Assembly (NCBI GenBank): GCA_946699065.1
Contig: CAMPDV010001448.1
Location: 1-64,000, forward strand
Length of the DNA: 64,000 bases
Source of the DNA: Loxodes magnus
Taxonomy: Eukaryota; Ciliophora; Karyorelictea; Loxodida; Loxodidae
Direction of reading: 5' to 3'
Part shown: positions 5,743 through 62,937 of the stretch, in pieces
Numbering within the stretch: the first letter of the stretch is position 1
How the letters are laid out: each line of letters begins with the position of its first letter
Translations under genes and position numbers: made by a program
Notes under the pieces: model-generated
The model's database searches: none
Told to the model about the DNA's origin: nothing
What the model saw: the letters and a program-made list of their open reading frames with translations, nothing else

Positions 5743-6826
5743 ATGGAGAAAAATTAAATGGAGAAAAAAGAAAAGCAATTTACTAAAAGTATTTTTTTAA
5801 GAAAACTCTTAAGAGTGAGAAGCCACATTTTAGGGAAAATATCTCTACTTCATTTTAAGTATGAAATTCTGCCTAACTTATGCTACTAAAAGCTTATAAA
5901 TAAGATCAGTTATGACCAAAGTAAAGGTATTTCTTTAATATTTTTTAGACTAAATCATTACTGACACTTCAGCTGTGTTATTGGTAGCCATATCAATTGA
6001 CCTGAATTGAATTGTATCAGGTTCAGGATATCCTGAATGTTCGATAAGGATCTGGAACTTCCAGACAGGTGCTCTCATAAGAACTATAACAGGACATACT
6101 GATTATGTTAACTCGGTAGTGATCTCCCCAGACTCTAGCTATATAGTATCGGGATCTGAAGACACAACTATAAAGATCTGAAACTTATAGACTGGTGCTC
6201 TCCAAAGAACTTTAACTGGTCATACTTCTACTGTTTGATCGGTAGTAATTTCCCCTGACTCTAGCTATATTGTATCGGGATCTTATGACACTACTATAAA
6301 GATCTGAAATTTCCACAATGGTGCTCTCCAAAGAACTATAACGGGACATACTTCTATAGTTAGATCGGTAGTAATCTCCTATGACTCTAGATATATTATA
6401 TCGGGATCTGAAGATACAACTATAAAGATTTGGGATTTCTAGACTGGTCAGATTGTGCGAACTCTTACTGGGCATTCAGACTCAGTTAGATCGGTGATAG
6501 TGTCTAAGGATAATAGGTATATAATATCAGGTTCTGTTGACAGTACTATTAAGATATGGGATTTCTCTTCTGGTTAGTGTATTCGTACTCTTTAAGGTCA
6601 TGCAGGTGGTGTACCAAGTATTCAGTTAAGTTTTGATTCAAGTGTAATATTTTCTGGTTCAAGGGATAAAACAATCAAGATCTGGAACTTTGATAGGGGT
6701 GAGTGTATATAGACTTTACAAGGGCATGCAAGAGGAATATATTCTATAGCATTGAGTATTGATAATAGATGGTTGATATCGGGAGGATATGACAAGACGA
6801 TAAGAAAGTGGTGGGTTTCGAGTTGA
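5743..6826 (+). CDS. WD40 gene 1: 351-residue seven-bladed propeller protein
   Basis: Exons 5743-5920 and 5949-6826 with a 28-nt intron (starts GTAAAGG, ends TTTTTTAG) that splits an Asn codon. An in-frame ATG at 5758 is an alternative start. The first 59 residues form a basic helical N-terminus (SIFLRKLLR, KISLLHFKYEILP). Seven WD40 blades follow, typically TGH..V.SVVISPDSSYIVSGS.D.TIKIWN. The blade Trp is TGG in some blades and TGA in others, Gln is often TAA or TAG, and the frame ends at TGA after RKWWVSS. This copy lacks one codon in blade 1 (ITDTS instead of ITGHTS). A protein-interaction scaffold or recognition surface is the family expectation; the partner is unknown. Confidence 0.85.
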
Positions 6827-7334
6827 GTAACTTATGATTTGACTTAATTTAATTTTACGATTAAAGATATAAGATATAAGATATTGGTGATGCATTTAAA
6901 TGAATGTTTAATGTTAATAATATTTTAGTTTTATGAAGTGTTTGTTTTTTATTTATTTATTTAAAATTTGTATATTCTTAAATATTCTTGGTTTAAAATA
7001 AAGGTTGAGTAAATAATATAGGTTATTAAATTAGTGAGGTATGTTGATTTAAAGTGGGTAATGTTTAAAAATATAAAAATATAATTTTGTTAAATGAAGA
7101 TGTATAATAAATTTAAGTTTAATTTTATTCTATAAAACTTTATAGATTTATTTTTAGATTTTGTAAAAATTTAAAGTTAAGCAAAAATTTTAATTTTTTT
7201 TGTGAAGTAATTAAAATATTATTTATAAGGTTAAAGTTAGTTTATAATTCTGATTATTATTATAATTAATTAAAATTAATTATTAGTTATTTATTATAAT
7301 TATTAATTTTAATATTTAAGTTTAATATTTTTAG

Positions 7335-8135
7335 TTTCCGATTGGAAAATTAATTTTTCTGATGGTAAGTTTTTATTTTTCAATTTTCGAGTATGGATTT
7401 CATGAAAATAAAAAAATTTGTTTCTTGCTCAGCGTTTTACACTACCAAAGATTTTTGGAACGGAATAAATTTAATTATTTCGGGATAAAAATTCTGAATA
7501 GTAATAATTTTTTTATTTTGGAATAAAAAATTTTAAAATTGGAATAAAAATTTTGAAAGTAGTTTTTAAAAAAGTTTTTAAAATTTCTTAGAAAAGCGTT
7601 TCTAAAATAATTTTGAAAATAGTTATCTAAAATCGTTTTGGAAATAAAATTTGGAAACTAATTTTAAAAATCTTTGAATTGATTTTAAGGAATTTTTTTA
7701 AAAAATTTTTTTTGATAAATATTTCTGGGACGGGATACATTTTTTTTAATATGTAAAAAAGGGGATTTTTTTTAATAGAATTAAACTAAAAAAATTTGAA
7801 TTTTTGGATGCTAATTTAATTTTTTAAGTTATATGTTAATAAATATAATTAAATATGTTTATTCTTGTGTTTAAGTTCAATAATAAATTTTAATTTTAAT
7901 GTTTAATATGTTTCGTTTTCGATTGGAAAATAAAATTTTCTGATATTAAGTTTTTTATTTATCATTATCTTTCAATTTTAGAGTTTAAATTTCATGAAAA
8001 CAAAAAATTTGTTTCTTGCTCAGCGTTTTACACTACCAAAGATTTCTGGGATGGAATAAATTTTTTGATTTCGGGATAAAAAATCCTAAATAGGAATAAA
8101 ATTTCAAGAAAAAATTCCAAATATAAACAATTTTT
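7335..8135 (+). pseudogene. Two degenerate copies of a repeated small ORF
   Basis: Two versions of the same short protein-like stretch occur about 570 bp apart: one near 7335-7560 (EYGFHENKKICFLLSVLHYQ) and one near 7905-8135 (EFKFHENKKFVSCSAFYTTK). Both correspond to the intact small ORFs at 27964 and 63504, but here frameshifts separate the HENKKFV part from the following HYQRF part. A further degenerate relative may lie at 8400-8640. Function unknown; each WD40 unit with a full downstream flank carries it. Confidence 0.45.
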
Positions 8136-8688
8136 GAGAAAAAAATAGGAATTAAAAAAAATTGTATATTAAAATAGAATTTGGAAATTTTTTTTGTTGA
8201 AATGGTATTTTGTAAAAATAAAATCATTTTTTTGTTTTTGGGAAATTTTTTTATTTGAAAAATTTTTAGCAAAATTTTTTTGTTTTTGATTTAAAAATAT
8301 ATTTAAATAAGGTAAATTATTTTTGAAATGATAAAAAAAATTATTGCTTATGCTTTGGAAAAAAATACAATTTTTAATTTTTAAATTCTTTTCGAGTAAA
8401 TGAAAAAACTCGCTTCAAAAATTTTTAATATTATAAGAGTTTACTTAAATGAAAAGGATCTCAAGAAAAAAGGAGATATAATAAAATAAACCATGAAATT
8501 GTGAAAAATTATCCTTTTTTCGCTCTGAGTTATTCGCTACAAAAGATTTTCGGGATGGATAAATTCTTTTCTTAAAGGGATAGAATTTTAAAAGATTTGA
8601 AAAGTTTTCTAAATAACCTTTAAGAAGTAATTATAAAAAATAAATGACAATTTTAGGAAGAAATAAAATCAGTAAAAACAATTTTTCT

Positions 8689-9005
8689 TTTTTTAATTAA
8701 TTTCAACTAAAAAGGTTTTGGACCGGAAACTCCTTTCCGATTGCAAGACCCGACGCTCTCTTTTTATGGAATAACAGGGATATCCTGTTGTGCTCCAGGC
8801 ACAGCTGATAGGGAGCTCCATCGCTATGAGCAGCCAGGCTTCAAGCCCCTACCAAGAGCGGATAATCTCAAAGGCAGTTTTCCCTTCAGAAAATGACTCT
8901 GAGTAGGGACTTCCTCAGCGACAGGAAATGAACTTGTTCCTAGCCATAAAACCAGAAAGTGTTGTCACGAAGGTCATTCTCAGCTCCCACCATCTTTTCA
9001 ATTAT
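8689..9005 (-). mobile_element. SINE-like GC-rich element, copy 1
   Basis: A 317-bp GC-richer island in AT-rich DNA, flanked by the 14-bp direct repeat AAAACAATTTTTCT (8675-8688 and 9006-9019). The homologous place in unit A2 (near 28712) holds a single uninterrupted, slightly diverged target. On the minus strand it starts ATAATTGAAAAGATGGTGGG and ends with TTAGTTGAAATTAATT plus an A-run. The long variable target duplication, the A-rich 3' end and the absence of inverted ends point to target-primed insertion rather than a DNA transposon. GGGGCTTGAAGCC inside it is a weak B-box look-alike. Confidence 0.75.
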
Positions 9006-9323
9006 AAAACAATTTTTCTATAAGAATGCTTAAAACTAACTTTTTAATAGATATTGCGAATTTAAAAAAATAACTAATATGAAAAGAGCTAAAAAATCTC
9101 TTTATAAAAATATGATCAATCAAATAGAAAAAATTAGGTACAATACATCTGTAATAATAAATTTTAGGCCAATTTACAAAGAATCTAAAAAAAGTAATTA
9201 AACAAGGATCTAAATAATATATCTAACCTAACTATATAAAATATAGAAACAAAAATTTATTAATCAAGTTTAAAAATATTCTGCTTTATTATAATAATTA
9301 GAAAAACATTAAAAATCGAAAAG

Positions 9324-15950: not shown

Positions 15951-16031
15951 TAATTAATTAATTATAAATTCCAAAGTTTATCTTGCATTTTATCTTTATA
16001 AATTATTATCTTTTAAATTTATTTAAAAAAA

Positions 16032-18054: not shown

Positions 18055-19990
18055 ATGCTTAATGATACCTTTAAAAATCATGATGGAAAAACTGAAGCTG
18101 ATGAGTAATTGATGCTAGTTTTTTAATTACCAGAAACAGACGTAACATTACAAACGAGAACTGTACCTGTTTGTATTTTAGAACAAATAATTGGATCTGG
18201 ATGAAGCGTGCAAATTAGCGAGGTGTTTTAGGATTATTACCTTGCAGTATAATTAATAATGAATTTTGGAGAAAGAAACATCCTGAGAACTAAAACTGAT
18301 TAATATCATCTTTCGTACATCTAGAGCCTGATGCATAGAATAAGTTTTTAAAATTAGAGGGAAATAAAAAATATATGCTCTTGAAATGGTTTAGTCTTAC
18401 CTAGCATGTATTCATGGTACTTTAATGGCTTATTATAGATCAGGAGACAAATATTAAGCCTATATATTGGCTTAGATAAGCACTGTATAAATAATTCTAA
18501 GAGAATAATCCGTGAAAGTTACAAACTTGGTAAGCTTTTAGTAGAAATTGTAAGGAATATAGTTATTGGAAGAATTGATGATGAAGAGAAATAGCTCTCT
18601 TGAAGCAGCTTTAAAGTATAGAGATTATATAAATTTTCTTCATCCTAGTGACTATGACTTCATACTTTATAATATGAGAAATTTTGAAATAGTAAAGCAT
18701 TCTTAAATAACCGACTTATGGTGTTTTGTCTATGGTTTATTTTTTACTCATCAATAAAATATAATAGTTGAAGGATTATCTGACTAAATCCTAAGAATGA
18801 TTTTGGTAAGATTTGCTAGAAATATTCAAGTCTTTAAATGAAAAGAATATTTGAAAGAGACTAACTGATTGAATATTTACAAAAAAAAACCTTAAGATCA
18901 GTGCAAAATACGACAATAAGTTGAAATTTTGTATTGGGTTGCTTCAGAAAAGTATTTTAGAGAACGCGAAAAATGCTAGCTTATATACTACTTAGAAGAA
19001 TTTATCTTTAGTAAGGTTAAATCTTAAAAATTTGAATGGAATTACTAATCTATGCTTAGCAATCTGTCCAAGTGGGAAAAGCTCCTTAAGTGAAGCAGGA
19101 GTTGCCAAATTTATTCTAGGAGCTAGTAAGTTTAATAGATGTGCTATTTGAACAGGAGATGCTTAGATTAGTATAATAAAATGCTCCCATACCTGTTTAG
19201 ATTAAAAAATAGACTAAAATACTTAAAATGTTCTTAGTAGTTAATAAACTGAATAAGAAAAAGTAAATAAAACTAAATAAATGTTAAATATTTATCATAT
19301 CTTAAGATCTCCCTTTTAAAATCAAATACATACATCTTAAAATAGCAAAGAATGGAAAATTATTATTTTCGGTTTAGCAAAAGATTTTACTGAAGAAAAT
19401 GCTCGAGCTATCTAAGAGAAAATTAGATGGTTATAAAGAAGAAAAACCTACGCCACCTTTGGAGTCAAATTTATTTTATTTATAATTGCAAGAACAGTTT
19501 CTTAAAATAGCGCAGTATATGAGGTTTTCAAGGAAAGACTTCCTAAGCTTAACAGTTATGATATGAATTGGAGAAATAGAAGAAAATCAGGTAAAGAATA
19601 AGCAAGTCTTATAGTAATGCATTAGGATAAACTATAAGAAAAAATCAGGATGTATAGTAAAAATATGTAGAAGAAAGTGGAAGAAAAATAGGAAGAAATA
19701 TAAGAGGAAATGCAAGAGGAAATTGACTATATTCCTTCAGAAAAAGCTATTTAAGTAGTAAGAATCTTTAAACAAGAAAAAGAAAGAATAGTGTAGCAAA
19801 TAGAGGACGAGGCAGAATATCCCATATGTTTTTCATTTTTCTCATAAATTTAGAAAGCTGCTTTGCATGTTGATCCACGTAATTTGAAATGTGAAATATA
19901 TCTATAGAGTTTGAGTTTTTGTCCTCTATATAGATAGAAACTTTAAAAACACTTTTAATTAAAATATCTTTTAAATATTTATATTCTAAT
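18055..19990 (+). CDS. Unrecognised multi-exon protein of about 600 residues
   Basis: Start MLNDTFKNHDGKTEADEQLM at 18055. Inferred introns: 18247-18271 (25 nt, weaker) and 19011-19059 (49 nt, GTAAGG donor, TACTAAT branch-like site, CTTAG acceptor); removing both gives one continuous frame. Middle: SSLEAALKYRDYINFLHPSD and TDLWCFVYGLFFTHQQNIIV. After the second intron: ICPSGKSSLSEAGVAKFILG. The C-terminal third (KEWKIIIFGLAKDFTEENAR, then a Glu-rich coiled coil QKKVEEKQEEIQEEMQEEID) is duplicated at 53726. The stop is not found; coding fades near 19990 at a hairpin with AATATTGC/GCAATATT arms. No family recognised despite good coding signal. Confidence 0.55.
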
Positions 19991-26361: not shown

Positions 26362-27429
26362 ATGGAGAAAAAAGAAAAGCAATTTACTAAAAGTATTTTT
26401 TTAAGAAAACTCTTAAGAGCGAGAAGCCACATTTTAGGGAAAATATCTCTACTTCATTTTAAATATGAAATTCTGCCTAATTTATGCTACTAAAAGTTAA
26501 TAAATAAGATCAGTTATGACCAAAGTAAAGGTATTTCTTTAATATTTTTTAGACTAAGTCCTTACTGACACTTCACCTGTTCTATCGGTAGCCATATCAA
26601 GTGACATGAATTGAATTTTATCAGGTTCAGGATATCCTGAGTATTCGATAAAGATCTGGAATTTCCAGACAGGTTCCCTCCTAAGAACTATAACAGGACA
26701 TACTGATTATGTTTTATCGGTAGTAATCTCCCCAGACTCTAGTTATATTGTATCGGGATCTGCTGATAAAACCATAAAAATCTGGAATTTATAGACTGGC
26801 TCTCTCCTAAGAACTATAACGGGACATACTTCTGAAGTTTTATAGGTAGTAATCTCCTATGACTCTAGCTATATTGTATCAGGATCTTATGACAAAACCA
26901 TAAGGATCTGAAATTTCCACAATGGTGCTCTCATAAGAACATTAACGAGACATACTCACTATGTTAGATCGGTAGTAATCTCCTATGACTCTAGATATAT
27001 TATATCGGGATCTAAAGATACAACTATAAAGATCTGGGATTTCTAGACTGGTCAGCTTGTGTAAACTCTTACTATGCATTCAGGTGGAGTTTGATCGGTA
27101 ATAGTGTCTAAGGATAATAGGTATATAATATCAGGTTCAGATGACGAGACTATTAAGATAGGGACTTCACTTCTGGTTAGTGTATTCGTACTCTTTGAGG
27201 TCATACAGATGTTGTATCAAGTATTCAGTTAAGTGTTGATTAAAGTGCTATCTTTTCTTGTTCATGGGATAGAACAATCAAGATCTGGAACTTTGATAAG
27301 GGTGAGTGTATATCGACTTTATAAGGGCATACATCGTATATATATTCTATAGCATTGAGTGTTGATAATAGATGGTTGGTATCGGGAGCTAGAGACAATA
27401 CTGTGAGAAAATGGAGAGTTTTTAGTTGA
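26362..27429 (+). pseudogene. WD40 gene 2: frameshifted copy
   Basis: Same architecture as the other copies: exon 26362-26524, 28-nt intron 26525-26552, exon to TGA 27427-27429. Exon 2 is one base shorter than in gene 1. The missing base is at about 27160, where other copies read TATGGGA and this one ATAGGGA. That loss puts the last two blades out of frame. Before it the frame is normal (TGHTDYVLSVVISPDSSYIV). Afterwards one blade has TGA where Gln is usual (RTLWGH) and CSWD where others have GSxD. Probably a recent pseudogene, or a single-base sequence error. Confidence 0.75.
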
Positions 27430-29298: not shown

Positions 29299-29608
29299 AT
29301 AATTAAAAAGATGGTGGGAGCTGAGATTGACCTTATGAATCATACTTTCTAGTTTTATGGCTAGGAACAAGTTCCTTTCCTGTTACTGAGAAAGTCCCTG
29401 GTCAAAGTCAACCTTTGCAAGGGAACGCCTTCCTCTTAATTATCCACTCCTGGTAGGGGCTTGAAGCCTGGCTGCCCATAGAGATGGAGCTCCCTGGCAG
29501 CTGCTTTTCGAAAGCAACAGGATATCCCCGTTATCCCATGAAGGGAGTGTTGGGGTCGTTAAACTGCAAGAAGTTGCAGTCCAAAACTCTTTTAGTTTAA
29601 AATTAAAA
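29299..29608 (+). mobile_element. SINE-like GC-rich element, copy 2
   Basis: 310 bp flanked by the 15-bp direct repeat AAAATTTGAATTTCT (29284-29298 and 29609-29623). The homologous empty site is intact in unit A1 around 9557, with the target present once. It starts ATAATTAAAAAGATGGTGGG and ends TTTAGTTTAAAATTAAAA. Body segments such as ATGGCTAGGAACAAGTTCCT and GGGGCTTGAAGCCTGGCTGC are shared with copies 1 and 3. No protein reading is convincing. Confidence 0.8.
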
Positions 29609-34790: not shown

Positions 34791-34794
34791 AAAA

Positions 34795-37571
34795 AATAAA
34801 TAATAAAAAAACAAAATTTAATTTAAAATAAAATAAATAAAATACTTAATTAAATTTTTTAATTAATAATCAAGATTATAAACCAGCTTTAACCTTATAA
34901 ATAATATTTTAACTACTTCACAAAAAAAAAATTAAATTTTTACTTAACTTGAAATTTTACAAAATATAAAAATAAATCTATAAAATTTTATAGAATAAAA
35001 TTAAACTTAAACTTATTTTACGTCTTCATTTAACAAAATTATACTTTTAATATTTTTAAACATTACCCACTTTAAATCAACATACCTCACTAATTTAATA
35101 ACCTATATTATTTACTCAACCTTTATTTTAAACCAAGAATATTTAAGAATATACAAATTTTAAATAAATAAATAAAAGACAAACACTTCATAAAACTTAA
35201 AACATTATTAACATTAAACATTCATTTAAATGCATCACCAATATCTTATATCTTTAATCGTAAAATTAAATTAAGTCAAATCATAAGTTACTCAACTCGA
35301 AACCCTCCACTTTCTTATCGTCTTGTCATATCCTCCCGATATCAACCATCTATTATCAACACTCAATGCTATAGAATATATTCATCCTGCATGCCCTTGT
35401 AAAGTCTATATACACTCACCCCTATCAAAGTTCCAGATCTTGATTGTTCAATCCGTTGAACCAGAAAATATTACACTTGAATCAACACTTAACTGAATAC
35501 TTGGTACACCACCTGCATGACCTTGAAGAGTACGAATACACTAACCAGAAGAGAAGTCCCATATTTTAATTGTGTTGTCCCGAGAACCTGATATTATGTA
35601 TCTATTATCCTTAGACACTATCACCGATCTAACTCAGTCTGAATGCCCAGTAAGAGTTCGCACAATCTGACCAGTCTAGAAATCCCAAATCTTTATAGTT
35701 GTATCATCAGATCCCGATATAATATATCTAGAGTCATAGGAGATTACTACCGATATAACATATGAAGTATGCCCAGACAAAGTTCTTTGGAGATCACCAT
35801 TGTGGAAATTTCAGATCTTTATAGTAGTGTCATAAGATCCCGATATAATATATTTAGAGTCAGGGGAGATTACTACCGATTAAATGTAATCAGTATGTCC
35901 CGTTATAGTTCTTATGAGAGAACCAGTCTATAAGTTTCAGATCTTTATGGTTTTGTCCCAAGATCCCGATATAATATATCTTGAATCAAAGGAGATTACT
36001 ACCGATCTAGCTGAGGAAATATGCCCCGTTAAAGTTCTTAGGAGAGTACCTGTCTGGAAATTCCAGATCTTTATCGAATTTTCAGGATATACTGAACCTG
36101 ATACAATTCAATTCAGGTCACTTGATATGGATACCGATAAAACACGTGAAGTGTGACCAGTAAGGATTTGATCTAAAAAATATTAAAGAAATACCTTTAC
36201 TTTGGTCATAACTGATCTTGTTTATAAGCTTTTAGTAGCATAAATTGGGCAGAATTTCATACTTAAAATGAAGTAGAGATATTTTCCCTAAAATGTGGCT
36301 TCTCGTTCTTAAGAGTTTTCTTAAAAAAATACTTTTAGTAAATTGTTTTTCTTTTTTCTCCATTTATTTTTTCTCCATTTTAATTTTTATAACTTACTTC
36401 AATAACTTTTTAATTAAAATAACTCAATAAATTTTACTGACTCAATTTAAATAAAATTAAACAATAAAATTATTTAATTATTTATTAAGCATACTTATAA
36501 ATATCTTATTTCTTAAATATTTATTTTTCTATTTTTGTCTTATAACAAGACAATATATAAAACTAATAGTACATGCTTTTACAATTTTAATTATTTTATT
36601 CCTTTTTACTTTTAAATAAAAGGATAAATTATTATTTCAAAAGTTTATAACGAAGAATTTATATCCTTATTATAATAACTTTAATATGCATTTATTAATT
36701 AAAACTTATTTGTGCTTTAAATCAAAGACTCTTAATAAGAAAACTTAATTTCGTTGTAGACCTTTTAAATGATATTTAAAATATTACCATTTTTTTAAAT
36801 CTACTGTTATTAATTATTATTTTTCTCTTACATTTAATCAAAAAAAACATTTATTTAAGCTTTTTACTAATTTAAGAAATAAAATAAGTTTCTTATTAAT
36901 TAGTTTAAATAAATATTAAAAAAAATCAAATTATTTAAATCAAAGCATATTTAGAATTTATAAGATAAATTCTTTTAATTATCCACTTTCTTACTACTAT
37001 TTCATTAAAACTTTTTATTTATAAAGGTCTCTCTTAAAATAATAAACTAATATAGTTCTTTAATTAATAAAGATATTAGATTAGTTATAATAAATACATT
37101 TAGATAATTTCTCTTTTTATAGCAAACTAATATTATATTTATTATTTATGTTATTTTTGTAATTATCATTTCTAATTAATAATACCTAAATTATTTTACT
37201 TTATATTACACTTACTTCTTTTCTATTATTCTATACAAATCTATATTATATTGCTACTACTATTAATACTCTCTTTATTAAAATTACTTGTTTGATATAA
37301 ATAAAATTATAAGCTTTTAGGAAAGAAAGCATATTTTTAATATATTCTATTATTATTTTCTGAATTAATAGAAAGAGTAAACTTAACATAATATGTTTCT
37401 TTGTAGTATGAGATAATATAAGTATTAGATTAGCTAATATAAGCTATTTAAAACTAATCTAACAGATTATTATTTACTCTTAATACATTTTATTAGTCTA
37501 CTATTATTCTATATCCTTCTGTTCCTAATCAGCAATACTTCATGTTTTACTTTATAGCACATCATCATTTG
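34795..37571 (-). repeat. Inverted segmental unit A3 carrying WD40 gene 3
   Basis: Reverse complement of the 24950-27890 type segment: downstream flank, WD40 gene, and about 1.2 kb upstream flank (36380-37571, AT-rich, no gene seen). Homology ends at about 37571 (ATCATCATTT), after which sequence is unique. Confidence 0.85.
35292..36378 (-). CDS. WD40 gene 3: intact 352-residue seven-bladed propeller
   Basis: Exons 36378-36201 and 36172-35292; intron 36200-36173, 28 nt with the same borders as the other copies; TGA stop 35294-35292; total 353 codons. The first Gln after the intron is CAA here and TAA in the other copies. The N-terminus matches the family (SIFLRKLLR). Blades carry copy-specific variable residues, for example GSWDKT, GSTDWT, GHISSARS and GHSDWVRS, inside otherwise near-identical text. 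No frame damage seen. Likely a scaffold or recognition propeller; partner unknown. Confidence 0.85.
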
Positions 37572-45140: not shown

Positions 45141-46227
45141 ATGGAGAAAAAATAAATGGAGAAAAAAGAAAAGCAATTTACTAAAAGTATTTTTTTAAGA
45201 AAACTCTTAAGAGCGAGAAACCACATTCTAGGGAAAATATCTCTACTTCATTTTAAGTATGAAATTCTGCCTAACTTATGCTACTAAAAGTTAATAAACA
45301 AGATCAGTTATGACCAAAGTAAAGGTATTTCTTTAATATTTTTTAGACTAAATCATCACTGGTCACACTTCAAATGTTTGCTCGGTAGCTATATCAAGTG
45401 ACCTGAATTGAATTGTATCAGGTTCAGGAATTCCTGAATATTCGATAAAGATCTGGAATTTCCAGACAGGTACTATCATAAGAACTATAACAGGACATAG
45501 TTATTATGTTAACTCGGTAGTAATCTCACCAGACTCTAGCTATATAGTATCAGGATCTGGTGATAGAACGATAAAGATCTGAAATTCATAGACTGGTGCT
45601 CTCATAAGAACTTTAACGGGACATACTTCTCCTACTACTTCGGTAGTAATCTCCTATGACTCTAGATATATTATATCGGGATCTGGAGATAAAACCATAA
45701 AAATCTGAAATTTCCACAACGGTGCTCTCCAAAGAACTATAACAGGGCATAATTCATATGTTTTCTCGTTAGTAATCTCCTATGACTCTAGATATATTAT
45801 ATCGGGATCTTCTGATACAACTATAAAGATTTTGGATTTCTAGACTGCTCAGCTTGTGCGAACTCTTACTGGGCATATAGGTTATGTTTTAGTGGTGAAA
45901 GTGTCAAAGGATAATAGGTATATAATATCTGGTTCTGGCGACAGTACTATTAAGATATGGGACTTCTCTTCTGGTAAGTGTATTCGTACTCTTCAAGGTC
46001 ATATAAAAGGTGTATGTAGTATTCAGTTAAGTTTTGATTTAAGTGTTATCTTTTCTAGTTCTGGTGACAGAACAATCAAGATTTGGAACTTTGATAAGGG
46101 TGAGTGTATATAGACTTTGTAAGGGCATACAGATCCAATATATTCTATAGCATTGAGTGCTGATAACAGATGGTTGGTATCGGGAGCGGATGACAGGACG
46201 ATTAGAAAGTGGAGAGTTTCAAGTTGA
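45141..46227 (+). CDS. WD40 gene 4: intact 352-residue seven-bladed propeller
   Basis: Exons 45141-45318 and 45347-46227, 28-nt intron 45319-45346, TGA stop at 46225; total 353 codons, the same length as gene 3. An alternative ATG lies at 45156. Seven blades; the central ones read TGHTSP..SVVISYDSRYII, then SGSGDKTIKIWN. Distinctive variable residues: GSGD in several blades, GHIGYVLVV, GHIKGVCS, GHTDPIYS. A stretch of blades 5 to 7 (45856-46113) happens to be free of TAA/TAG/TGA, using CAA and GGT AAG where other copies have TAA or TAG. Role as for gene 1. Confidence 0.85.
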
Positions 46228-48542: not shown

Positions 48543-51500
48543 ATGAATAGTAATGAACTAAAAACATTTAATTTCATTAATTCAAATATAAAATGCATCA
48601 AATAATATCGAAAAGTTAATGTGCATAAAAAATATTTAATAATTCTTCTTAAAAATAAATAATTTCCAACTAAAAATCTAAAAACAAAATGCTCATAAAA
48701 AAAAATCAGAAGAAATAATAAAAATATAAAAAGAAATAAATAATCAAGAAAAATAAATATAAGAACTCTATGAAATTAAAGAAAGAATTAAAGATAATAA
48801 TATAGTGTTGTAAGAAAAATGAACATAATAAATAGATTATAACGATTTATTAGAGTAAGAAATTTAAAATCTAAATATAAATTCAGAGATAGGAAAAGAA
48901 CAATTTGAATTTTAGATTACCAAAATGAATAAAAAAAAGAAAATCTAAAACGTGAGTTAGAAAAATAACAAAATTAATACAATATTTAAAATTAAAAAAT
49001 AATAATAAACAAGGAAAGAGACCAATTATTATAAGATTAGATTTCTGAAATCAAATAACAATATTTAAAATAATTGGAAGAAAAAGAGGTAGACATCAAA
49101 TTTATAATTAAAGAATACGCAAATAGGAATCTAGAAATAAATAAAAAAAATTAAATAATAGAAGATAAGTAAAGCTAAATTATTTAACTATAGAGAAATT
49201 TGAGTAAATCATTAGAAGAGAAGCAAAATTACTAAGAATAAAAACAACTTAACTTAAAATATACAACAATAAGAAATAATTTAATAACTAAGAAAAAAAC
49301 AAATATAATTACTTAAATTGATAAATATAATATTAGGGACAATATATTTCTTCTCAAATAAAAAACATTTTAAATATCTTCATAAGAAAATAATTAAAAG
49401 AAAAGAGAAGCAACAGAAAATTTGGAAAATTTAGAAACAAAATGTGAATAATTCTGATATAAACGTAAAAAGAAAGACTAAAAAGTTATTAAAAGTACTT
49501 TAACTTAAGATTTAAAATAATAAAAAATATAAACTAAAACTAAATAAAATTCTAGCCATACTATTTAAATAAATCTAACGAGTCTATAAAACAAAGCCTA
49601 GAAAAGCACATAAAAAGAAAATTTAGATTAATAATGATGATAAAAACTAATTATTAATAAATAGTTAAAAGCGCTGATTTAATCTAAAAAAAAAATTTAT
49701 CTACTTAAACATAGACTAAAAAATACTAAAAAAAATACCTAGAATATTAGAATAATATAAATGAATTAAAAAAAGTTTTAAACAAGAAGAAAATCTATTA
49801 AAAGTAAAATTATATCCAAAGAAAAACTAAATCTGAATTAAACCAAGAGGTTTAAAAAGTGGAACAAGATAACCACAAAATAATCTCTGAAATCAAGCAA
49901 ATTAATCACATCACCAATAGTAATATGTATAATAAAGCTATGAAAATTAGAAAAAACTATAAAATTTGAATAAATGTAATTTAATTAAAGATAAATAATA
50001 TAGCTAAATATATCAAGACTTTAACTAACTAAAAGATTTTCACCTATTTTTACAACAACTGGAAAATTGAGAAGGAAATGGAATTAACTTATAATATATA
50101 GAAGAATACGAAAAAATATACAGAATCGGATCCATAAATATACATGGAGGATACTTTAAAAAAAAAATTAGAAATAAATAATCTTATATAAGAAAATAAC
50201 CTGGATATTCTAATGCTCCAAGAAACTTATACTACTAAAGAATATGGAATATTAAACAAAAACTTCAAATAATATTTCCTGTAAGTAACTGGAAAGACAG
50301 AAGGACTATTTGCTTTTTTTTTAATTGAAGATCAAGTTGAAGAAATTCAAATATAGCATAATTATAAAAGGATACAAGCCTTCAAATTAAATGAATTAAT
50401 AGTTATAAATATCTATATGCCAACTAGTAATCACTCAGTGGAACTAGTATATAATTGTTATTAAGAACTAGGATAGTTATTAGATTAATTTAAAAATCAC
50501 AAAATAATCATATGTGGAGATTTTAATGCTCATTTAAATAAATAATAAAACATAAAATACGTAGATGAACTTCTATAGCAATTTGTGCGAACTTTTGATT
50601 TAATAGATATAAACTAAGAAAGATAAAATACTCATATAATTAAATAAACAAAGCAAAGATAAATAATTTATTATATATTCACTAATTAAAAAAACAGTCA
50701 ATAAGAAAACTTCAGATTTAATGTTTAAGAAGAAGTGGGGTTAACAACAGATCATTTTCTACTCATAACATAAACTTAAATTAGATAACCAATAATCTAA
50801 AAAAATGACAAATTCACATAATTTAAAATAAGTTATAAATTGAAAAAATTAAAATAAGAAATCTAAAAGTATTCCTATAAAGAAGAATATAGAGGGATAT
50901 AAGAATTTTTTAATTAATTAATAGATGAACAAAATCTAGAAGAACAATACTACTTTATTATAAATCTAATTAATATATCAGCATTCAATAGTGTAGGAAT
51001 TAAAAGACAACAAGAGGTTTAAAAATCTTAAAAATAATACTAATAGATGCTGAGAAAAATATAGCTAGAAATATGTATATGTAAGAAATAAATTAATATA
51101 ATAGAAATAACGATTACATATTAAAACTCAAAAAGAAATATTTAAAAGAAAAAAAAAGTACAGCAAAATGTAAAAAGAAGAAAAACAGCAAAATAAAAAT
51201 AATTAATAAATATTCCTAAATGGTAATAATCAAGAAATGGCCAATTAAGCCAAAAAGATTTTAAACCCAAAAAAAGGAACAAAAAATGAACCTGACGAAA
51301 ATGTAATAAGAAGATTTCATTCAAAATTGGGAGAAAAATGTATTTAATAAATAATAAAATCTTTCTCTAAACTAAAATAACAAAATTAATAAAGAAATTG
51401 ACAAAATCTATGGAACAAATATTAAAGAAAGATTAAAAAAAAAATGAGAAAATATTCCATACTAGTAAGTATGAGATGTAATCAGATTTTTACCTAACAA

Positions 51501-53725
51501 TAAGGCTCAAGGATTTGATTCAATATCAAATGAACTAATAAAAAACGCATCGCACGAACTATGATAAATACTATGCAAATTTTTCTAAAATTGTTAGAAG
51601 CAATAAAAACTACCTAAAAATATGAACAAAGTTAAAATAATAATGCTTCACAAAAAAGGAAACAAATAAAATTGGAAAATTACAGACCTATAGCACTCAT
51701 AAACGTAATTTAAAAAATATTTGATAAATTAGTAATTAACCAATTATACTAAGAAATATAAGATTAAGATATATTAAAAAAAGATTAAAAAGGATTTATA
51801 AAAAAGATGCAAACTGCTAATAATATATGACAATTAAAACAAATCATAGAAAACTATAAAAATAAAAAGAAAAAAGAAAATTATAATGAAGACTTATTAA
51901 TCACGTTAATTGATGTAGAAAAAATGTTCGACACAATAAATCGTAGATTTTTATTTGACCAGAAGAAAAAATTAAACATTTCGTAAAATATAATTAATAT
52001 AATAAAAGATACATATTAAAAAGTATAAATTAACTTCTATCTTGATGAAGAAATAACTAGAAAAATTCGGTAAGTAAATGGAGTCTTGCAAGGCAGCTCA
52101 AGTGGACCAATATTAGCAATAATATACTATGATATAGTATTAAGGTATTTAGAAAAATATGAAAAACTAGGGCATAAAATTAAAAAAAATTATCATGCTA
52201 AACTTGCTTGAGCAGATGATTTAATACTAATATCAAATAATCAAAAAAAGATGTAAATTTTACTAAACGAAACTGAAAACATTTTTAAATTAATAAGACT
52301 TAATATTAACACGGAGAAATGCGAATTTATATAAATACTCAAGAATAGAAACACAACGAACAAAGAGATTGAACTTTTTCTATTAGGAAAAAAAATTTAA
52401 TAGAAATAAAAAATTTAATACCTAGGATATCAAATAAACTAACTTAATGAAGAAAAGGTTCAGATTGAGTACCTCTTCAAGAAATTTTAATAATCGATAT
52501 TTATATTCTAATCCTAATTCTTTAAAAACTATAACAAAACATAGCCAATTAACTTTAAGAACTTATTCAGATTATTTATAATGCCAAAATTAGAATACTG
52601 CTCGGAATTAATCCCATATAGTATTCAATTAGGAATAAAAAAATGAAAAAATAAAATCTAAATAGCACAAATATAAATCCTAAGAAAATACTTGAAAATT
52701 CCACAAGCATCATTTAAAGAAATTCAGTATATAGATTTCAACTGATGTAAATTTGAAGATTCAAAAGCATAAGATTTTTTAAATTCTACAAAAAATTATA
52801 AGATTAATTCAGAAATAATCAAGAAAAAGAAAAAAGTAGATAAGATACAAAATTCTAATAACTTTTCAAACAGAGTTAAAAATGGAACTCAAAATATAAA
52901 AAAAGCATTAAAAAAATTGAAAAATACTATGAAATAAACAATGAATAAATAAGAGATCTTAACATAAACAATTATACTAAAGAAATCTAAAAATAAATAC
53001 AAAAAAAAATTTTCAAGGAAACAATATATAGAATATAAGATATAAAAACAGCCGAAATAATTTACAGACAACATAAAAATGAGACTAAATTTTAAAAAAT
53101 TACTTATATAACAACAAACAAACAAAGAATTAATAAAAGATAAAAATTAATTTATAGACTAAGAACGCAATTAATATTTTTTAGAGCTGATATCTCAGAA
53201 AGACATATTGATTAAGAGTAGATACTATGCCTTTGTTAGCAATAAGAAAAATTTGAACACATCTTTGATTGCTAGTATTACAGATAAATTATATAAGAAA
53301 ACAGTCTTCAGATACAAGAAACATTATAAAATTTACACATAAACATAAATCTGAAAAGAAGGAAATAATAAATATACAATAAGCAATGAAAATAATAAAA
53401 AATAGAGAAAAATTTAAAAGAAATGCTAGAATATAATCAAATATTAATAAATTAAGAAACAAAAAAGAATAAATAAATCCTAGAAGATATTGATCTTAAG
53501 ATTAAAAAAACATGGTCTAGCATAAAACAAAAACATAAACAAATAACTTAATTTTAAGAATGGTTGAGGGAAAAATAAATCCATTAATAATATTTGAATA
53601 AAGAAGACTTAAAATAATTATTTTTAGAATGAACAAAGATACAAGAAGAAGAGAAACTAAACTAAAAAAATCAAATCAAAACAATAATGAAGACCTAAGA
53701 GTTTCAGAATGAGAGTAAAATGAAT
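48543..53725 (+). CDS. Retrotransposon ORF2: coiled coil, endonuclease, RT
   Basis: Start MNSNELKTFNFINSNIK at 48543. A long Glu/Lys coiled coil follows to about 50080 (EEKEVDIKFIIKEYANRNLE). Endonuclease: GSINIHGGYFKKK, LDILMLQETYTTKE, CGDFNAHLN (50513-50539), LTTDHFLLI. RT: NYRPIALINVIQKIFDKL, LIDVEKMFDTINRRF (51909-51953), GVLQGSSSGPILAIIYYDI (52080-52136), LAWADDLILIS with the box residue before ADD encoded by TGA (52209) where families usually have Tyr or Phe. C-terminal finger CLCQQQEKFEHIFDC (53228-53272). Frame changes occur between the coiled coil and the endonuclease, at the A10 run, and possibly near 51240. Probably recently active; currently broken unless these are sequencing slips. 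Confidence 0.75.
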
Positions 53726-54510
53726 AAGAAAAAGTAAATCAAACTAAATAAATGTTAAATATTTATCATATCTTAAGATCTCCCTTTTCAAATCAAATTC
53801 ATACATCTTAAAATAGCAAAGAATGAAAAATTATTATTTTCGGTTTAGCAAAAGATTGAACTGAAGAAAATGCTCGAGTTATCTAAGAGAAAATTAGATG
53901 GTTATAAAGAAGAAAAACCTACGCCACCCTTAGGAATCAAATTTATTTTATTTATAATTGCAAGAACAGTTTCTTAAAATAGCGCATTATATGAGGTTTT
54001 CAAGAAAAGACTTCCAAGCTTAACAATTACGATATGAATTGGAGAATAGAAGAAAATCAGGTAAAGAATTAGCAAGTCTCATAGCAATATAATTAGGATA
54101 AACTATAAGAAAAAATCAGAATGTATAGCAAAAATATGTAGAAGAAAGTGAAGAAAGCAAGAAGAAATATAAGAGGAAACATAAGAGGAAATCGAGTATA
54201 TTCCTTCAGAAAAAGCTATTTAAGTAGTAAGAATCTTTAAACAAGAAAAAGAAAGAATATAGCAGCAAATAGAGGACGAGGCAGGATATCCTATATGTTT
54301 TTCATCATTCTCATAAATTTAGAAAGCTGCTTTGCATGGTGATCCACGTCATTTGAAATATGAAATATATCTATAGAGTTTGAGTTTTTGTTCTCTATAT
54401 AGACAGAAACTTTAAAAATGCTTTTAATTAAACTATCTTTTAAATATTTATATTCTAATAATATTGCAAGCTCATATTGAAACAATATTAAAAGCTAAAA
54501 CTAATTAAGA
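53726..54510 (+). pseudogene. Truncated copy of the 18055 gene's C-terminal third
   Basis: Matches 19253-19990. Conserved: MLNIYHILRSPF, KEWKIIIFGLAKDWTEENAR (Trp as TGA here at 53824, TGG at 19353 in copy 1), EKAIQVVRIFKQEKERIQQQ. One-base indels near 53928, 54027 and 54045 break the frame. The 5' two thirds are absent; retrotransposon ORF2 runs into it. By chance or design one ORF2 frame reads straight across the join (EQEKVN in both). Confidence 0.7.
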
Positions 54511-54729
54511 TTATTTACTTTAACATATTTAATTTTCAAAACTTAAAATAAAAAATGTTTAAGATGCTTTCTTAAAAGCAATAATATTTAATAAATTATT
54601 TGAATACTAAATTTTATTTAAAAAGGTTAAATCTAATAATTAAATTATTTTAAATTATTAACTTTATAAAATTTTAAGTTTTTTCTAGTTTAGATAATTA
54701 TAAGATACATCTATTTATATTAAATTAAA

Positions 54730-55665
54730 AAATATCAAACATCCGATAGGGCTTCTTTGCCACCTCTTCAAAAGACAAATAGGAAGAGAGGAAGCGAGAT
54801 GCTATTCTTCTAACCTCATGTCTTTTCTTTAATTAGACCAACCTTTTTATCAGCAAAAAAACTAATAATAGACCTAACAACTTCCAAAGCCGGGTAAACG
54901 ACAGAAACAAACTTGGTAGACTCCAAACACGGAAGAGTGGCCTCGAAGGCAGTAGGAGATGGTATTGCGTGACTAGAAACGATACTTTGGCTTTAACTCT
55001 GAGCAAGTTGATGTAGCGTAGTTTGCATTAAGGGTGGTGAACTTCAATGAAGAGGTTTAAAAGTTGAAATACTAGAACAAAAAACTAATTTTCAAGCCAC
55101 AAAGAAAATAATTAAATGGATGGGGATCGTATAGATGATTATGAACGCAAATGGATGCGTTCTTCAGCATCCAACACCATTAGAATAAAAACACAACTTA
55201 GCTGAGGGATTAAGTAATGAAATAAGAATAGGAAATTCAACTCCTAAAACAATCAAGAATGGAATAGCTAAATAATAGATCGATCTCAATGATCGTCAAA
55301 CCCTAAGCTTAACCTCAAATGAGACTAATTCCGATCAAGAAGAGATGCTTTCGCATCTAAAACCAACAAAAGCTATATCGGAACTGTAAGAAGTTTCAAT
55401 AGAAACAAAGGAATTTCTGACAAACAAAGCGAACAGAAGCAATTGGGCTGAACAAGATTTTTTTGCACGAGAATGGAAGTATGAACAAGAGGAAGAAAAT
55501 GGAGCTATAACAAAGTCCTAAGGGAATTATAACGTAAAACCCATTAAAAAAACCCGCGTATGGCAACGTGTAATCTTTCTGTTGCTCCAAGTATTTAACG
55601 AACAGCGAAAAGCTTGAAGCGCTGTACTTCTGAGAGGGTAAAACTCCTTAATAATGGAGAACAAT
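54730..55665 (+). pseudogene. Unknown protein in a GC-richer block, copy 2
   Basis: Counterpart of 20285-21235. The longest readable run here is SNETNSDQEEMLSHLKPTKA, continuing AISELQEVSIETKEFLTNKA and WAEQDFFAREWKYEQEEENG. Two single-base insertions relative to copy 1 (near 55173 and 55271) and other indels upstream mean neither copy has a single clean frame. Selection for protein is still visible as mainly third-position differences. Confidence 0.55.
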
Positions 55666-56232
55666 TTTATATAATAATAATTACAAAACCTAATATTTGT
55701 TTTCTTATCTAAAACTTTATAGTATCAAATTATTTAATTTTAAGTATGCGTTTTCTCCTCATTAATTCCAAAGATATTTATTTTACTCTAAAAGTTATAA
55801 ATTTTATATAAAAAAGGATATCGATAATACAAATGAAAAATTAAAATAATACTATTAAATAAACTATGAATTTCATTTAAACTTAATCATTCAATTCTAG
55901 TTGAGAAAAAAGTTTGATCTGATACTGTGATAAATAAGATTTTAGCAAATTTTCTTGATATAAAAAAATTTAAGTGAAAAAATGAGCTAAAAGTGGCTTT
56001 TTGGACTTTATTAAGCATCAGAGTAATTTTTTAATAGAATATGACAATTTGAAATAACATAATTAAAAGTATAGAAAAAATATATTAATTTAATTTATTA
56101 GTGAAGAAACTTAATTTATTGGAAGATATTCGCTAGAATTAAATTAATTGGAGCTTAAATTTTAAGTAATATAATTACGATATTAATAAGTTATTATGAC
56201 AAGAATTTAACAAGTATAAGATAATATTTAAT

Positions 56233-56835
56233 ATAGCTTATAACTAAGGAGAAAAAATAAGGGAATTAATGAATAGCATAGAGGATTAAAACAACGAATT
56301 ATTAATACTCAGAAGACAGCTCATTCAAAGCAATTTGATAACGGAAGAACAACTCTGAACTTAGTCACAATAAAACTTTAAATATGACACGAAAATGGAA
56401 ATAGAAAAAATACCAATAGAATTAAAAACAGAATTGAATCCAGAAAAAGAAATGATTGCTACAAGTTTCATTTAAAGATTAGAAAATATAGAAAATAAAT
56501 TATCATAAAAAAGAACGAAATAAAGACAATAATACAAACTTTGTTGATGTTGCAAATCAAATCAACATATTTTAAAAAACTGCTGATAATGAAAGAAAAT
56601 AAACGAATAAGAGCAGAAAAGAACATGGAGACAACTCAATAAACTATGAATAACTCCAACAGGGATCTACAAATAAAAGCTTTTTGCAAAACCACTTGAA
56701 CGGTTACAGTGGTAACCTTCCACTTAATAAAAAGGTCGTGGATCACACCCACGTTAAAAAAACTGTCCGCAGGAACTGGTTGCAATTCCAGAGAATGCAA
56801 AACTCTACTAACTTTAAGTTTATTATTATTATTAT
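56233..56835 (+). mobile_element. Inserted CCHC-ORF element with 16-bp target duplication
   Basis: 603 bp between two copies of TAAGATAATATTTAAT (56217-56232 and 56836-56851); the homologous site in copy 1 of U0 (about 21809) has the target once. It encodes MNSIEDQNNELLILRRQLIQ from ATG 56269 and the knuckle CWCCKSNQHILKNC (C-x2-C-x4-H-x4-C), homologous to the ORF at 15397. A one-base deletion at AATAAAAAGG shifts its C-terminal part. It ends in a (TTA)n-like repeat just before the target copy, as non-LTR insertions often do. It lacks ORF a and any RT, so it is 5'-truncated or non-autonomous. Confidence 0.8.
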
Positions 56836-60800: not shown

Positions 60801-61378
60801 TATCTTATAAATTCTAAAAATGCTTTGTTTTGAATAGATTGATATTTTTTAATATTTATTTATGCTAATTAATAAGAAACTTATTTTATTTCTTTAATTA
60901 GTAAAAAACTTAAATCAAATTTTTTTTGATTAAATGTAAGTCAAAAATAATAATTAATAACAATAGATTTAAAAAATGGTAATATTTTATTTATCATTTA
61001 AATTAGTTTACAAAGAAGTAAGGCTTTATTATTAAGAGTCTTTGATTTAAAGTACACATAAGTAGTAACTAATAAATGCATATTAAGGTTATTATAATAG
61101 GGGTATAATTCTTCGTTATAAAACTTTTGAAATAATAAATTATACTTTTATTTAAAAGTAAAAAGATATAAAATAATTAAAATTGTAAAAGCATGTACAC
61201 TATTAGTTTAATATCTCGTCTTTTTTTTAGATAAAAATAGAAAAATCAATGTTTTAGACGATATTTATAAATATGCTTAATAAATAATTTAAGTGCTTAA
61301 TTATATTTAAATTAAGTCAGTAAAATTAATTGAGTTATTTTAATTAAATATTTATTGAAGTAAGTTATAAAAATTAAA
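57895..61378 (+). repeat. Repeat U1 copy 3 and upstream flank of WD40 gene 5
   Basis: 57895-60080 matches U1 at 22875 and 41650; 60080-61378 matches the upstream flank of the other WD40 genes. AT-rich, with no supportable gene; the preceding 55670-56230 and 56852-57895 are likewise AT-rich tail of U0 without a gene. Confidence 0.75.
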
Positions 61379-62937
61379 ATGGAGAAAAAAGAAAAGCATT
61401 TTACTAAAATTATTTTTTTAAGAAAACTCTTAAGAGCGAGAAACCACATTCTAGGGAAAGTATCTCTACTTCATTTTAAGTATGAAATTCTGCCTAATTT
61501 ATGTTACTAAAAGTTAATAAATAAGATCAGTTATGACCAAAGTAAAGGTATTTTTTTAATATTTTTTAGACTAAGTCATTACTGGTCATATAATTGAAAT
61601 TAAAGAGGGTGGAAATGGGACCTGAGATGCACAAGGGACCTTCTGCAGGTTTAAAGGGACTTGCGATGAAGATGCAATCCCCCGTGCTGAGAAATAAGCC
61701 GCAGAAAGGCTTAAATACCTTCCCTCAGCAACTTATGCACTCCGTGGTGCATTCATCCTTGGACTTCCCAACTAAGAGACTCAATTACACCTCCTAATAA
61801 CTCAGACCGAGGTGCCGCCTTGGAGTGATCTCTCCACCTCTTAGGAGCTACCTAGGCAGATCGGCGGTTTCTGTCAGTTGAAGACGGACTGGATGGCGAT
61901 ATTCGCCTATAAAGCCGAGAAGTGGGTCCAGGCGAGACGATAGGAAAGTCCAAAAGACATACACAAGAAGAAAAGATTAGTGATGATGTGCACTTAACAC
62001 ACATCAGGTTGGCATCTATTAAGATAACAGTCCCTTCCTTAACACTTAATTTAAACTTTAAGTCATTACTGGTCACTCTTCGACTGTGATATCGATAGCC
62101 ATATCAAGTGACATGAATTGAATTGTATCAAGTTCATGAACTCCTGAATGCTCAATAAAGATCTGGAATTTCTAGACAGGTACTCTCCAAAGAACTATAA
62201 CAGGACATACTTCTGATGTTTGATCGGTAGTAATCTCTCCAGACTCTAGCTATATAGTATCAGGATCTGGTGATGAAACCATAAAGATCTGAAATTCATA
62301 GACTGGTTCTCTCATAAGAACTATAACGGGACATACTGATTACATTTAATCGGTAGTAATCTCCTATGACTCTAGCTATATTGTATCAGGATCTTATGAC
62401 ACTACTATAAAGATCTGAAATTTCCACAATGGTGATCTCATAAGAACTATAACAGGACATACTTCTACAGTTATCTCGGTAGTAATCTCCCCGGACTCTA
62501 AATATATTATATCGGGATCTGAAGATACAACTATAAAAATCTGGGATTTCTAGACAGGTCAGCTTGTGCGAACTCTTACTGGGCATTCAGGCTGAGTTTT
62601 ATCGGTGATAGTATCTAAGGATAATAGGTATATAATATCTGGTTCTTATGACAGTACTATTAAGATATGGGACTTCTCTTTTGGTTAGTGTATTCGTACT
62701 CTTTAAGGTCATAAAAGTGGTTTATGTAGTGTTCAGTTAAGTTTTAATTCAAGTGTTATCTTTTCTGGTTCTGATGATCATCTAATCAAGATATGGAACT
62801 TTGATAAGGGTAAGTGTATATAGACTTTATAAGGGCATATATATTTCATATATTCTATAGCATTGAGTGTTGATAATAGATGGTTGGTATCGGGAGGATG
62901 GGACAAGACGATAAGAAAGTGGAGGATTACGAGTTGA
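61379..62937 (+). CDS. WD40 gene 5: intact frame except for a 470-bp insertion in exon 2
   Basis: Exon 1 61379-61541, intron 61542-61569 (28 nt), exon 2 61570-62937 ending at TGA 62935-62937. Exon 2 is interrupted at 61589-62058. Removing the insertion plus one 17-bp target copy (487 bp) leaves exactly 881 bp, the exon 2 length of genes 3 and 4, and an open WD40 frame (ITGHSSTVISIAI) through seven blades. Variable residues include SSWTPECS in blade 1, GHTSDVWS, GSYDTT, GSDDHL, GGWDKT. With the insertion retained the protein would be about 60 normal residues followed by unrelated sequence. Confidence 0.8.
61589..62058 (+). mobile_element. 470-bp SINE-like insertion in WD40 gene 5
   Basis: GC-richer insertion between two copies of TAAGTCATTACTGGTCA (61572-61588 and 62059-62075). 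Other WD40 genes have the target once. Its head TATAATTGAAATTAAAGAGG followed by GTGGAAATGGGACCTGAGA resembles the heads of the 310-bp elements (AATTGAAAAGATGGTGGGA), so it looks like a longer relative. No inverted terminal repeats beyond chance. It could be an ordinary SINE insertion or, in a germline genome, an eliminated sequence. Confidence 0.8.

Follow-up and report, generated by a model that had tools for sequence, protein, structure and literature searches.

Five WD40 genes lie in a 64,000-nt stretch of a Loxodes magnus contig (hereafter the window), and they raise the question of why proteins built on so constant a frame differ from copy to copy at a few positions of their blades. We approached this question through the anatomy of the genes, the selection acting on their variable codons, a structural model, and the family of related copies in the 705.7 Mb genome.

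Anatomy of the window genes

All five genes were recovered at the places given in the initial annotation, which had been made from the sequence alone. Each has two exons separated by a 22-nt intron and encodes seven blades, in a reading frame that requires NCBI translation table 27 (TAA and TAG read as glutamine, TGA as tryptophan or stop). Exon 1 is 169 nt long in every gene, the 22-nt intron reads GTATTT(C/T)TTTAATATTTTTTAG, and a conserved TGA ends each gene. Blade 1 has 44 residues, being shorter in genes 1 and 2 through a 3-nt gap, and blades 2 to 7 have 42 each. The features are as follows.

5758..5926, plus strand: gene 1 exon 1, coding for some 57 N-terminal residues; in-frame ATG further upstream at 5743
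5927..5948, plus strand: gene 1 intron, 22 nt, predicted from the DNA
5949..6826, plus strand: gene 1 exon 2, encoding the seven WD40 blades; ends in TGA at 6824-6826
26362..26530, plus strand: gene 2 exon 1
26553..27429, plus strand: gene 2 exon 2, WD40; probably broken by a 1-nt deletion in blade 5
36195..36363, minus strand: gene 3 exon 1
35292..36172, minus strand: gene 3 exon 2, unbroken WD40; Pfam WD40 matched; protein used for the structure model
45156..45324, plus strand: gene 4 exon 1; a further in-frame ATG lies upstream at 45141
45347..46227, plus strand: gene 4 exon 2, WD40; terminal TGA
61379..61547, plus strand: gene 5 exon 1
61589..62058, plus strand: gene 5 insertion, 470 nt; 17-bp direct repeats at 61572-61588 and 62059-62075
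62059..62937, plus strand: gene 5 exon 2, WD40, from the end of the insertion onwards; ends in TGA

Genes 1, 3 and 4 carry an in-frame pair of ATGs 15 nt apart; in genes 1 and 4 the starts previously placed (5743 and 45141) correspond to the first ATG of the pair. The insertion in gene 5 sits just past the intron, is flanked by a 17-bp target duplication, and had no Rfam match at gathering score. Because of this insertion and the 1-nt deletion in gene 2, two of the five copies look broken. The blades had been described as nearly identical, which holds for the same blade compared between genes; within one gene, blades 5-7 are clearly unlike blades 2-4.

Searches for additional domains agreed with the earlier view that the family is without a NACHT domain. 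Pfam detected no NACHT in the gene 3 protein, and in its N-terminal segment neither a HET nor another NLR effector domain nor any other family above cut-off (best PF14392, 15.2 bits against 27). A genome-wide search with the NACHT profile PF05729 gave 31 weak matches (27.9-37.8 bits, cut-off 26.7), none of them on this contig. Likewise, neither a transposase nor a NACHT domain was found by Pfam at 1-4, 7.4-12.3, 14.6-19.4, 19.2-21.8, 21.8-26.3 and 28.2-33.1 kb of the window. ARAGORN found nothing, and gene finding by codon usage followed G+C and failed to separate genes. In a public protein search, those of the best 120 of 6,296 matches that carried an organism name were from bacteria or fungi, and the six inspected among these 120 were other WD40 proteins.

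Diversification of the blade face

We fixed four blade positions a priori, 7, 9, 25 and 27, from the fungal HNWD family as it is described in the available text of PMC1805685 and PMC2873952. Among the window copies these positions hold ranks 1-4 of 42 for amino-acid difference, and 1 of 111,930 four-position subsets equals them in variability (blade 1 was left out at positions 26 and 27, where it is not comparable). The same positions were the top four of 42 in sets of 25 loci, 14 representatives and 37 loci. Positions 5 and 6 were variable as well, and 15, 38 and 40 less strongly so. At position 25, before the conserved Asp, we found exactly the eleven residues reported earlier. The variable codons do change at their first and second bases, as had been noted, but their third bases differ too (0.35-0.53 of comparisons at the four positions).

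The AlphaFold2 model of the gene 3 protein is a seven-bladed propeller (pLDDT 97.6). In this model, with strands assigned by DSSP, the four positions fall in the d-a loop, at the start of strand a and in the b-c loop, and by WD40 topology they therefore lie on one face, the predicted top face, as the initial annotation had anticipated for its variable sites. The residues termed R1-2, R1 and D-1 are general top-face contact residues of WD40 proteins, according to the available text of PMC3419727. In each blade, positions 7, 9 and 25 correspond to R1-2, R1 and D-1, and position 27 follows the tetrad Asp.

To measure selection we used loci chosen by similarity to gene 3. Of 46 aligned loci, 40 were free of frameshift, counting gene 5 with its insertion removed and not scoring indels that adjoin the intron; GT..AG and the terminal TGA were kept in all 46, and the intron was 21 nt long in five. 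Leaving out the six frameshifted loci and identical sequences gave 37 distinct copies, among which two loci lacking a blade were retained. The alignment used a raised gap cost, since a lower cost produced paired false indels at the variable codons. Across these copies, dN/dS was 2.58 (1.96-3.57) at the four positions, 0.37 at the remaining positions and 0.10 in exon 1, as pairwise Nei-Gojobori counts in which pairs are not independent. Pairwise counting was used because the copies recombine. Synonymous divergence at the four sites was itself raised (dS 0.31 vs 0.18). In 231 pairs, pN at the four positions was 0.439, against 0.131 for upstream non-coding divergence and 0.159 for pS at the remaining positions. 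Within the window, exon 2 diverged more (0.143) than the upstream flank (0.082), and the flank more than exon 1 (0.043). As dN/dS exceeds 1 at the variable sites but is far below 1 at the others, variation spread evenly over synonymous and nonsynonymous sites is excluded. These codon comparisons support a scaffold under purifying selection in which a few face residues are under strong diversifying selection.

Family size, sequence exchange and competing explanations

One exon-1 28-mer has 947 exact copies in the genome; viral contigs gave no exact match to an exon-1 pattern. First-look candidate totals, such as 99,126 for PF00400, were not taken as gene counts. The flanks of the window genes are duplicated over kilobases, and a LINE, with one reverse transcriptase (RT) beside a LINE-type endonuclease, lies between genes 4 and 5. 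Tract exchange between copies, raised earlier as a matter for gene conversion analysis, was observed both as mosaic copies (e.g., L034/L035) and in a run test, where 40 of 586 pairs reached p<0.01 (35 loci, 200 shuffles per pair, excluding loci with whole-blade gaps and pairs with fewer than eight differences). Two of the 46 loci miss exactly one 126-nt blade, the other 44 having seven. Four-residue signatures common to different blade numbers were rare (3/131), so free blade shuffling of the HNWD type lacks support.

We consider it probable that these genes encode recognition propellers, with a constant scaffold and a diversified top face, spread by segmental duplication and tract exchange, and with recognition as their likeliest use. 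Purifying selection would hold the scaffold while diversifying selection drives the top-face residues at positions 7, 9, 25 and 27 apart. New copies would come from segmental duplication, and gene conversion or crossing-over would move tracts between them, chiefly among corresponding blades; exchange on a constant frame means that new combinations of face residues would keep appearing. The likeliest use would be to recognise many or fast-changing protein partners, as in the fungal HNWD receptors. The diversifying propeller proposed in the initial annotation is thus supported by dN/dS and by the modelled face; that the proteins bind ligands, that these are microbial or non-self targets, and that the window family serves as an adaptor are what we infer from this pattern.

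Diversified faces might instead reflect selection for many different but constant housekeeping partners, the copies being sub-functionalised scaffolds in no arms race. Ordinary WD40 families, too, differ from one another in their top-face residues. High diversity at hotspot sites is also known generally in highly repetitive WD40 proteins (in the available text of PMC5587647). We nevertheless regard this explanation as unlikely, given 31 face haplotypes in 37 copies of such similar frames, a mean of 20 of 27 face residues different, and the 947 exact copies of the exon-1 tag.

A functionless high-copy repeat, in which the genes ride on segmental or mobile repeats and unconstrained surface sites drift, appears improbable. 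The number of exon-1 copies, the kilobase-long duplicated flanks, the neighbouring LINE, the six of 46 frameshifted loci and the disrupted gene 5 are all in keeping with it. However, drift cannot surpass the neutral rate, whereas pN at the four sites is over threefold the divergence of the flanks, which largely refutes the drift version; the constraint on exon 1 and the framework and the preserved splice sites, stop codons and (in 40 of 46 loci) frame also argue against passengers.

Targeted hypermutation of the variable codons (e.g., DGR-like) in place of selection is very improbable, for while change restricted to single codons and a 1.7-fold rise of dS there would fit it, the sites hold 47 codon types (third bases A 425, T 390, G 105, C 71), all three codon positions vary, unlike the adenine-directed first- and second-base change described in the available text of PMC10907252, synonymous change is hardly raised in neighbouring codons 8, 10, 24, 26 and 28 (pS 0.195 vs 0.155), and the sole RT in the scanned parts of the window accompanies the LINE-type endonuclease.

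Known systems and kinase-linked relatives

As candidate recognition propellers, the window genes resemble the HNWD family of NLR genes (het-d, het-e and het-r) of Podospora anserina. As far as these are described in the available text of PMC1805685, PMC2873952 and PMC12222747, both systems have 42-residue WD40 units on a conserved frame, diversifying codons 7, 9, 25 and 27 on the top face (with dN/dS above 1 there in the ciliate), and a multigene family with sequence exchange. HNWD proteins, however, have 10-12 interchangeable repeats, whereas the ciliate blades, typically seven, appear to retain their position identity. Neither HET nor NACHT was detected in the gene 3 protein, nor NACHT on this contig, and, further unlike HNWD, the ciliate genes use table 27, have far more copies and have relatives with a kinase. 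The window family would be a functional analogue of HNWD; it is not a member. Podospora and this ciliate diversify their blades at the same four positions in proteins whose partner domains differ, which suggests that the WD40 top face has been recruited convergently as a programmable recognition surface. By this analogy, our results suggest a large recognition repertoire in a protist, resembling fungal self/non-self receptors; a protist family of this size would open the study of how single-celled predators and hosts discriminate microbes, prey, symbionts and kin.

Other systems share single features. DGRs also place single hypervariable codons within an otherwise constant recognition fold, but the ciliate variation is not adenine-directed, and the scanned parts of the window contain no DGR-type RT. 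The 90-bp-exon LRR genes of Tetrahymena likewise form a young, lineage-specific ciliate family of thousands of tandem-repeat genes, located near LINE-like elements and in pericentromeric and subtelomeric regions; they differ in being LRR, not WD40, and in their repeat-per-exon structure, and the available text of PMC6564038 holds no report of per-site diversification of their binding face. Highly repetitive WD40 proteins and bacterial kinase-WD40 proteins share the conserved frame with diverse hotspot sites (PMC5587647, available text). PkwA (5yzv), which was rank 2 in Foldseek, combines a kinase with a C-terminal propeller, as do related genes of the ciliate genome, whereas the window genes are without a kinase and differ in their short intron and family size.

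All eight kinase genes inspected in the ciliate genome end in similar propellers, the kinase lying upstream. The kinase of one of them, L018, had no match in the six frames of the window at E up to 10. The junction YDQSK/DQILTGH of the window genes resembles YDKSQ/DKIFTGH of L018 in a comparison by eye of this one kinase gene with predicted splice sites. In both, a short phase-1 intron is predicted just before blade 1. In five kinase-linked propellers taken alone, dN/dS at the four sites was 1.74, with an interval that spans 1 (0.96-3.16). The kinase would be the signalling output; the window family, having none, would serve as adaptor, decoy or partner.

The 126-nt blade also occurs in the genome as long tandem arrays, and one exact 35-mer of their unit is present 3,462 times. 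Two array results weigh against the reading of a selectively diversified face: the four positions are not always the top ones (1 to 784 of 111,930 subsets do as well, with units defined by Hamming distance and without residue anchors, which bias conservation), and one array piece out of ten had a pN/pS of 0.67 at these sites. Both the pooled array pN/pS and the array-kinase distance comparison exclude the L017 array, whose unit is of another type. We give little credence to a broader scheme in which the ciliate maintains an immune-type repertoire, some thousand or more WD40 recognition propellers together with kinase-linked receptors, and in which the face-bearing blades of those receptors would be refreshed by conversion from arrays of thousands of 126-nt cassettes. 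In the distance comparison, blades 1-4 of the five kinase genes were in 20 of 20 cases closer to some sampled array unit than to any of blades 1-5 in the remaining four genes, the 193 distinct units sampled giving the arrays an advantage. Blade 5 was nearer to the arrays in two of five genes, with one tie, and some blades had their closest match within the same gene.

Anatomy of the five propeller genes

The initial annotation described five WD40 genes in the window, and we located all of them, with the following starts:

5758, gene 1
26362, gene 2
36363, minus strand, gene 3
45156, gene 4
61379, gene 5

Each gene has a 169-nt exon 1 followed by a 22-nt intron, and an exon 2 that encodes seven WD40 blades with a conserved TGA right behind the last strand. 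We read the genes in table 27, the code of Loxodes magnus, whose introns average 19.3 nt with 93% at 25 nt or shorter according to the text of its genome paper (PMC11441545). Table 27 has no unambiguous stop codon, so that an uninterrupted frame does not by itself indicate a gene; we relied on selection and conservation instead, with gene status examined in the 46 loci that we aligned. Genes 3 and 4 end in the residues RKWRVSS, and the order of the sequence suggests that strand d of blade 7 would be supplied from the N-terminal side. Blade 5 of gene 2 has lost one base, and gene 5 is interrupted by 470 inserted nt flanked by a target duplication of 17 bp. This insertion (61589-62058) is G+C-rich, and searching the window with a threshold of E 1e-10 gave no second copy.

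Variation on the propeller face

Codons 7, 9, 25, and 27 are reported as positively selected in the repeats of HNWD, a Podospora anserina NLR family (PMC1805685, PMC2873952); since our test class was taken from these reports, it is independent of the present data. With blades numbered in the HNWD register (L1 T2 G3 H4), these were the four most different of 42 positions among the five window copies, and 1 of 111,930 four-position subsets was as extreme. As the initial annotation had expected for its variable sites, dN/dS exceeded 1 at the four positions (2.36, 1.61-3.81); it was 0.44 outside them and 0.16 in exon 1. Non-coding flanks served as the neutral yardstick, and divergence among the window genes was 0.082 upstream, 0.043 in exon 1, 0.143 in exon 2, and 0.113 downstream; the propeller exon has thus diverged more than the flanks and exon 1 less. 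Genes 1 and 3 share the most similar tract, which starts at blade 4 position 15; its 14 face codons carry nine non-synonymous and two synonymous differences, and its 134 other codons carry four and six, respectively.

An AF2 model built from an alignment of 24 sequences (pLDDT 97.6, pTM 0.93) had 7big, 5yzv, and 2ymu, designed and repetitive propellers, as its closest solved folds. Across blades 2-7, positions 5-7 fell in the d-a loop and 25-27 in the b-c loop (each in a strand in 0 of 6 blades), and position 9 lay inside strand a in 5 of 6. In WD40 topology, these elements belong to the top face, and the modeled positions are accordingly predicted to share one face, as had been proposed. Positions 7, 9, and 25 equal R1-2, R1, and D-1 of PMC3419727.

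The 705,730,643-base assembly was searched with exon 1, and every one of the 40 copies scored, from 1,734 first-look candidates, was at least 97% identical. Thirty of these, window gene 3 among them, were made into loci; 12 more from an exon-2 search and window genes 1, 2, 4, and 5 completed the 46 aligned loci, in which gene 5 was counted with its insertion left out. Six carry a frameshift, and 37 distinct sequences do not. Among these 37, the four positions had a dN/dS of 2.58 (1.96-3.57), compared with 0.37 (0.29-0.50) for the remaining positions and 0.10 for exon 1; 14 representatives more than 5% apart gave 2.50 (1.82-3.72) at the four positions. There were 31 distinct 27-residue face haplotypes among the 37 copies. 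An exact exon 1 28-mer had 947 genome matches, 469 on the forward and 478 on the reverse strand, and its reversed control had none on either; because just three of the five window genes contain it, the family may exceed 947, and allelic contigs may be among the copies.

Exchange between copies was evident in L034 and L035, two loci that have blades 3-7 in common and differ in blades 1-2, and exactly 126 nt are absent from L024 and L026. Outside face codons, we compared the longest uninterrupted stretch of polymorphic sites identical within a pair with 200 shuffles and obtained p<0.01 in 40 and p<0.05 in 113 of 586 pairs; the pairs are not independent. Only 3 of 131 four-residue signatures of blades 2-7 occurred at more than one blade number; exchange is therefore mostly among matching blades, unlike in HNWD repeats.

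The proposed diversifying recognition propeller is the best reading of these data, given a face dN/dS above 1 and an excess over the neutral flank; recognition itself we infer. Scaffolds serving many stable partners are a possible alternative. A DGR-like process behind the variable codons is unlikely, as the codon make-up at these sites speaks against it. Neutral drift of surface sites is excluded, since change at the four positions (pN 0.439) exceeds mean flank divergence (0.131) and pS in the rest (0.159; 231 pairs from 22 loci having upstream sequence).

Kinase-linked propellers and blade arrays

At L018 (contig C512, 2957-5000), a protein kinase (PF07714, 5.1e-56), which we take to be TKL-like, is followed by a window-type seven-bladed propeller. 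In this one kinase gene, the putative intron site and the junction residues, judged by eye, resemble those of the window family; no L018-like kinase was found in the window. All seven further kinase places picked among 150 matches listed had a propeller directly downstream, so that 8 of 8 inspected (L018, L062-L068) carry one C-terminally. Five of the eight (L018, L062, L063, L066, L067), all having PDQKW-type blades, gave a dN/dS of 1.74 (0.96-3.16) at the four positions and 0.26 in the rest, with 5 of 111,930 subsets equaling the four positions. On contigs C1-C130, 16 of 48 kinase matches lay less than 30 kb from the left contig end, and all 16 point outwards. By analogy, this arrangement may resemble subtelomeric gene families, with contig extents assumed and repeat-ended contigs a possible source of bias.

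A WD40 family search also found the 126-nt blade in long arrays:

L009-L017 and L019, on C1503, C6957, C119, C9, C1832, C620, C272, and C4046

Units, delimited without residue anchors, are mostly spaced at 126 nt and are of two types, ..SPDQKWIVSAS.. and ..SNDTKWIVSGS... All units share one frame in 6 of 10 pieces; six pieces hold 75-78 in-frame units per 10 kb. The four codons were 6.5-14 times more nucleotide-diverse than elsewhere in 10 of 10 pieces; variability peaks at or near them, although they are not the top four in every piece (1 to 784 of 111,930 subsets match, depending on the piece). Their pN/pS exceeded 1 in nine of the ten and was 0.67 in L016. An exact 35-mer of the unit had 3,462 genome matches, 442 on the forward and 3,020 on the reverse strand, and its control had none on either. 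The arrays are satellite-like DNA built of a protein domain.

Known systems and neighboring elements

HNWD has been characterized in detail. Neither HET nor NACHT was found in the gene 3 protein, and by these defining features the window family stands outside HNWD; a genome-wide NACHT search returned weak matches only, none on the window contig, which bears out the suggested absence of this domain. By analogy, the family may nevertheless work like HNWD. No known output domain was found in it, which suggests a role as an adaptor or decoy, and signaling would probably run via the kinase-bearing relatives. An earlier study noted, as a general feature, that highly repetitive WD40 proteins are diverse at hotspot sites (PMC5587647). 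No such ciliate family was described among the matches listed, judged by title and abstract start, and "WD40", "WD repeat", and "kinase" are all absent from the main text of the L. magnus genome paper (PMC11441545).

Between genes 4 and 5 lie a LINE-type endonuclease (PF14529, 4.4e-7; 50084-50758, plus strand) and a reverse transcriptase (PF00078, 5.1e-21; 51837-52436, plus strand). Neither copy of a duplicated segment of higher G+C (19245-21825 and 53716-56235, 88.6% identical) had a Pfam match at E up to 0.01. Three copies of another G+C-rich element, roughly 320-340 nt long and without an Rfam match, lie at 8684-9023, 29295-29611, and 34458-34800; they are 79-92% identical and occur in both orientations. 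On the minus strand, 1313-1594 is a fatty acid hydroxylase-like stretch (PF04116, 1.2e-6, slightly below the curated cut-off).
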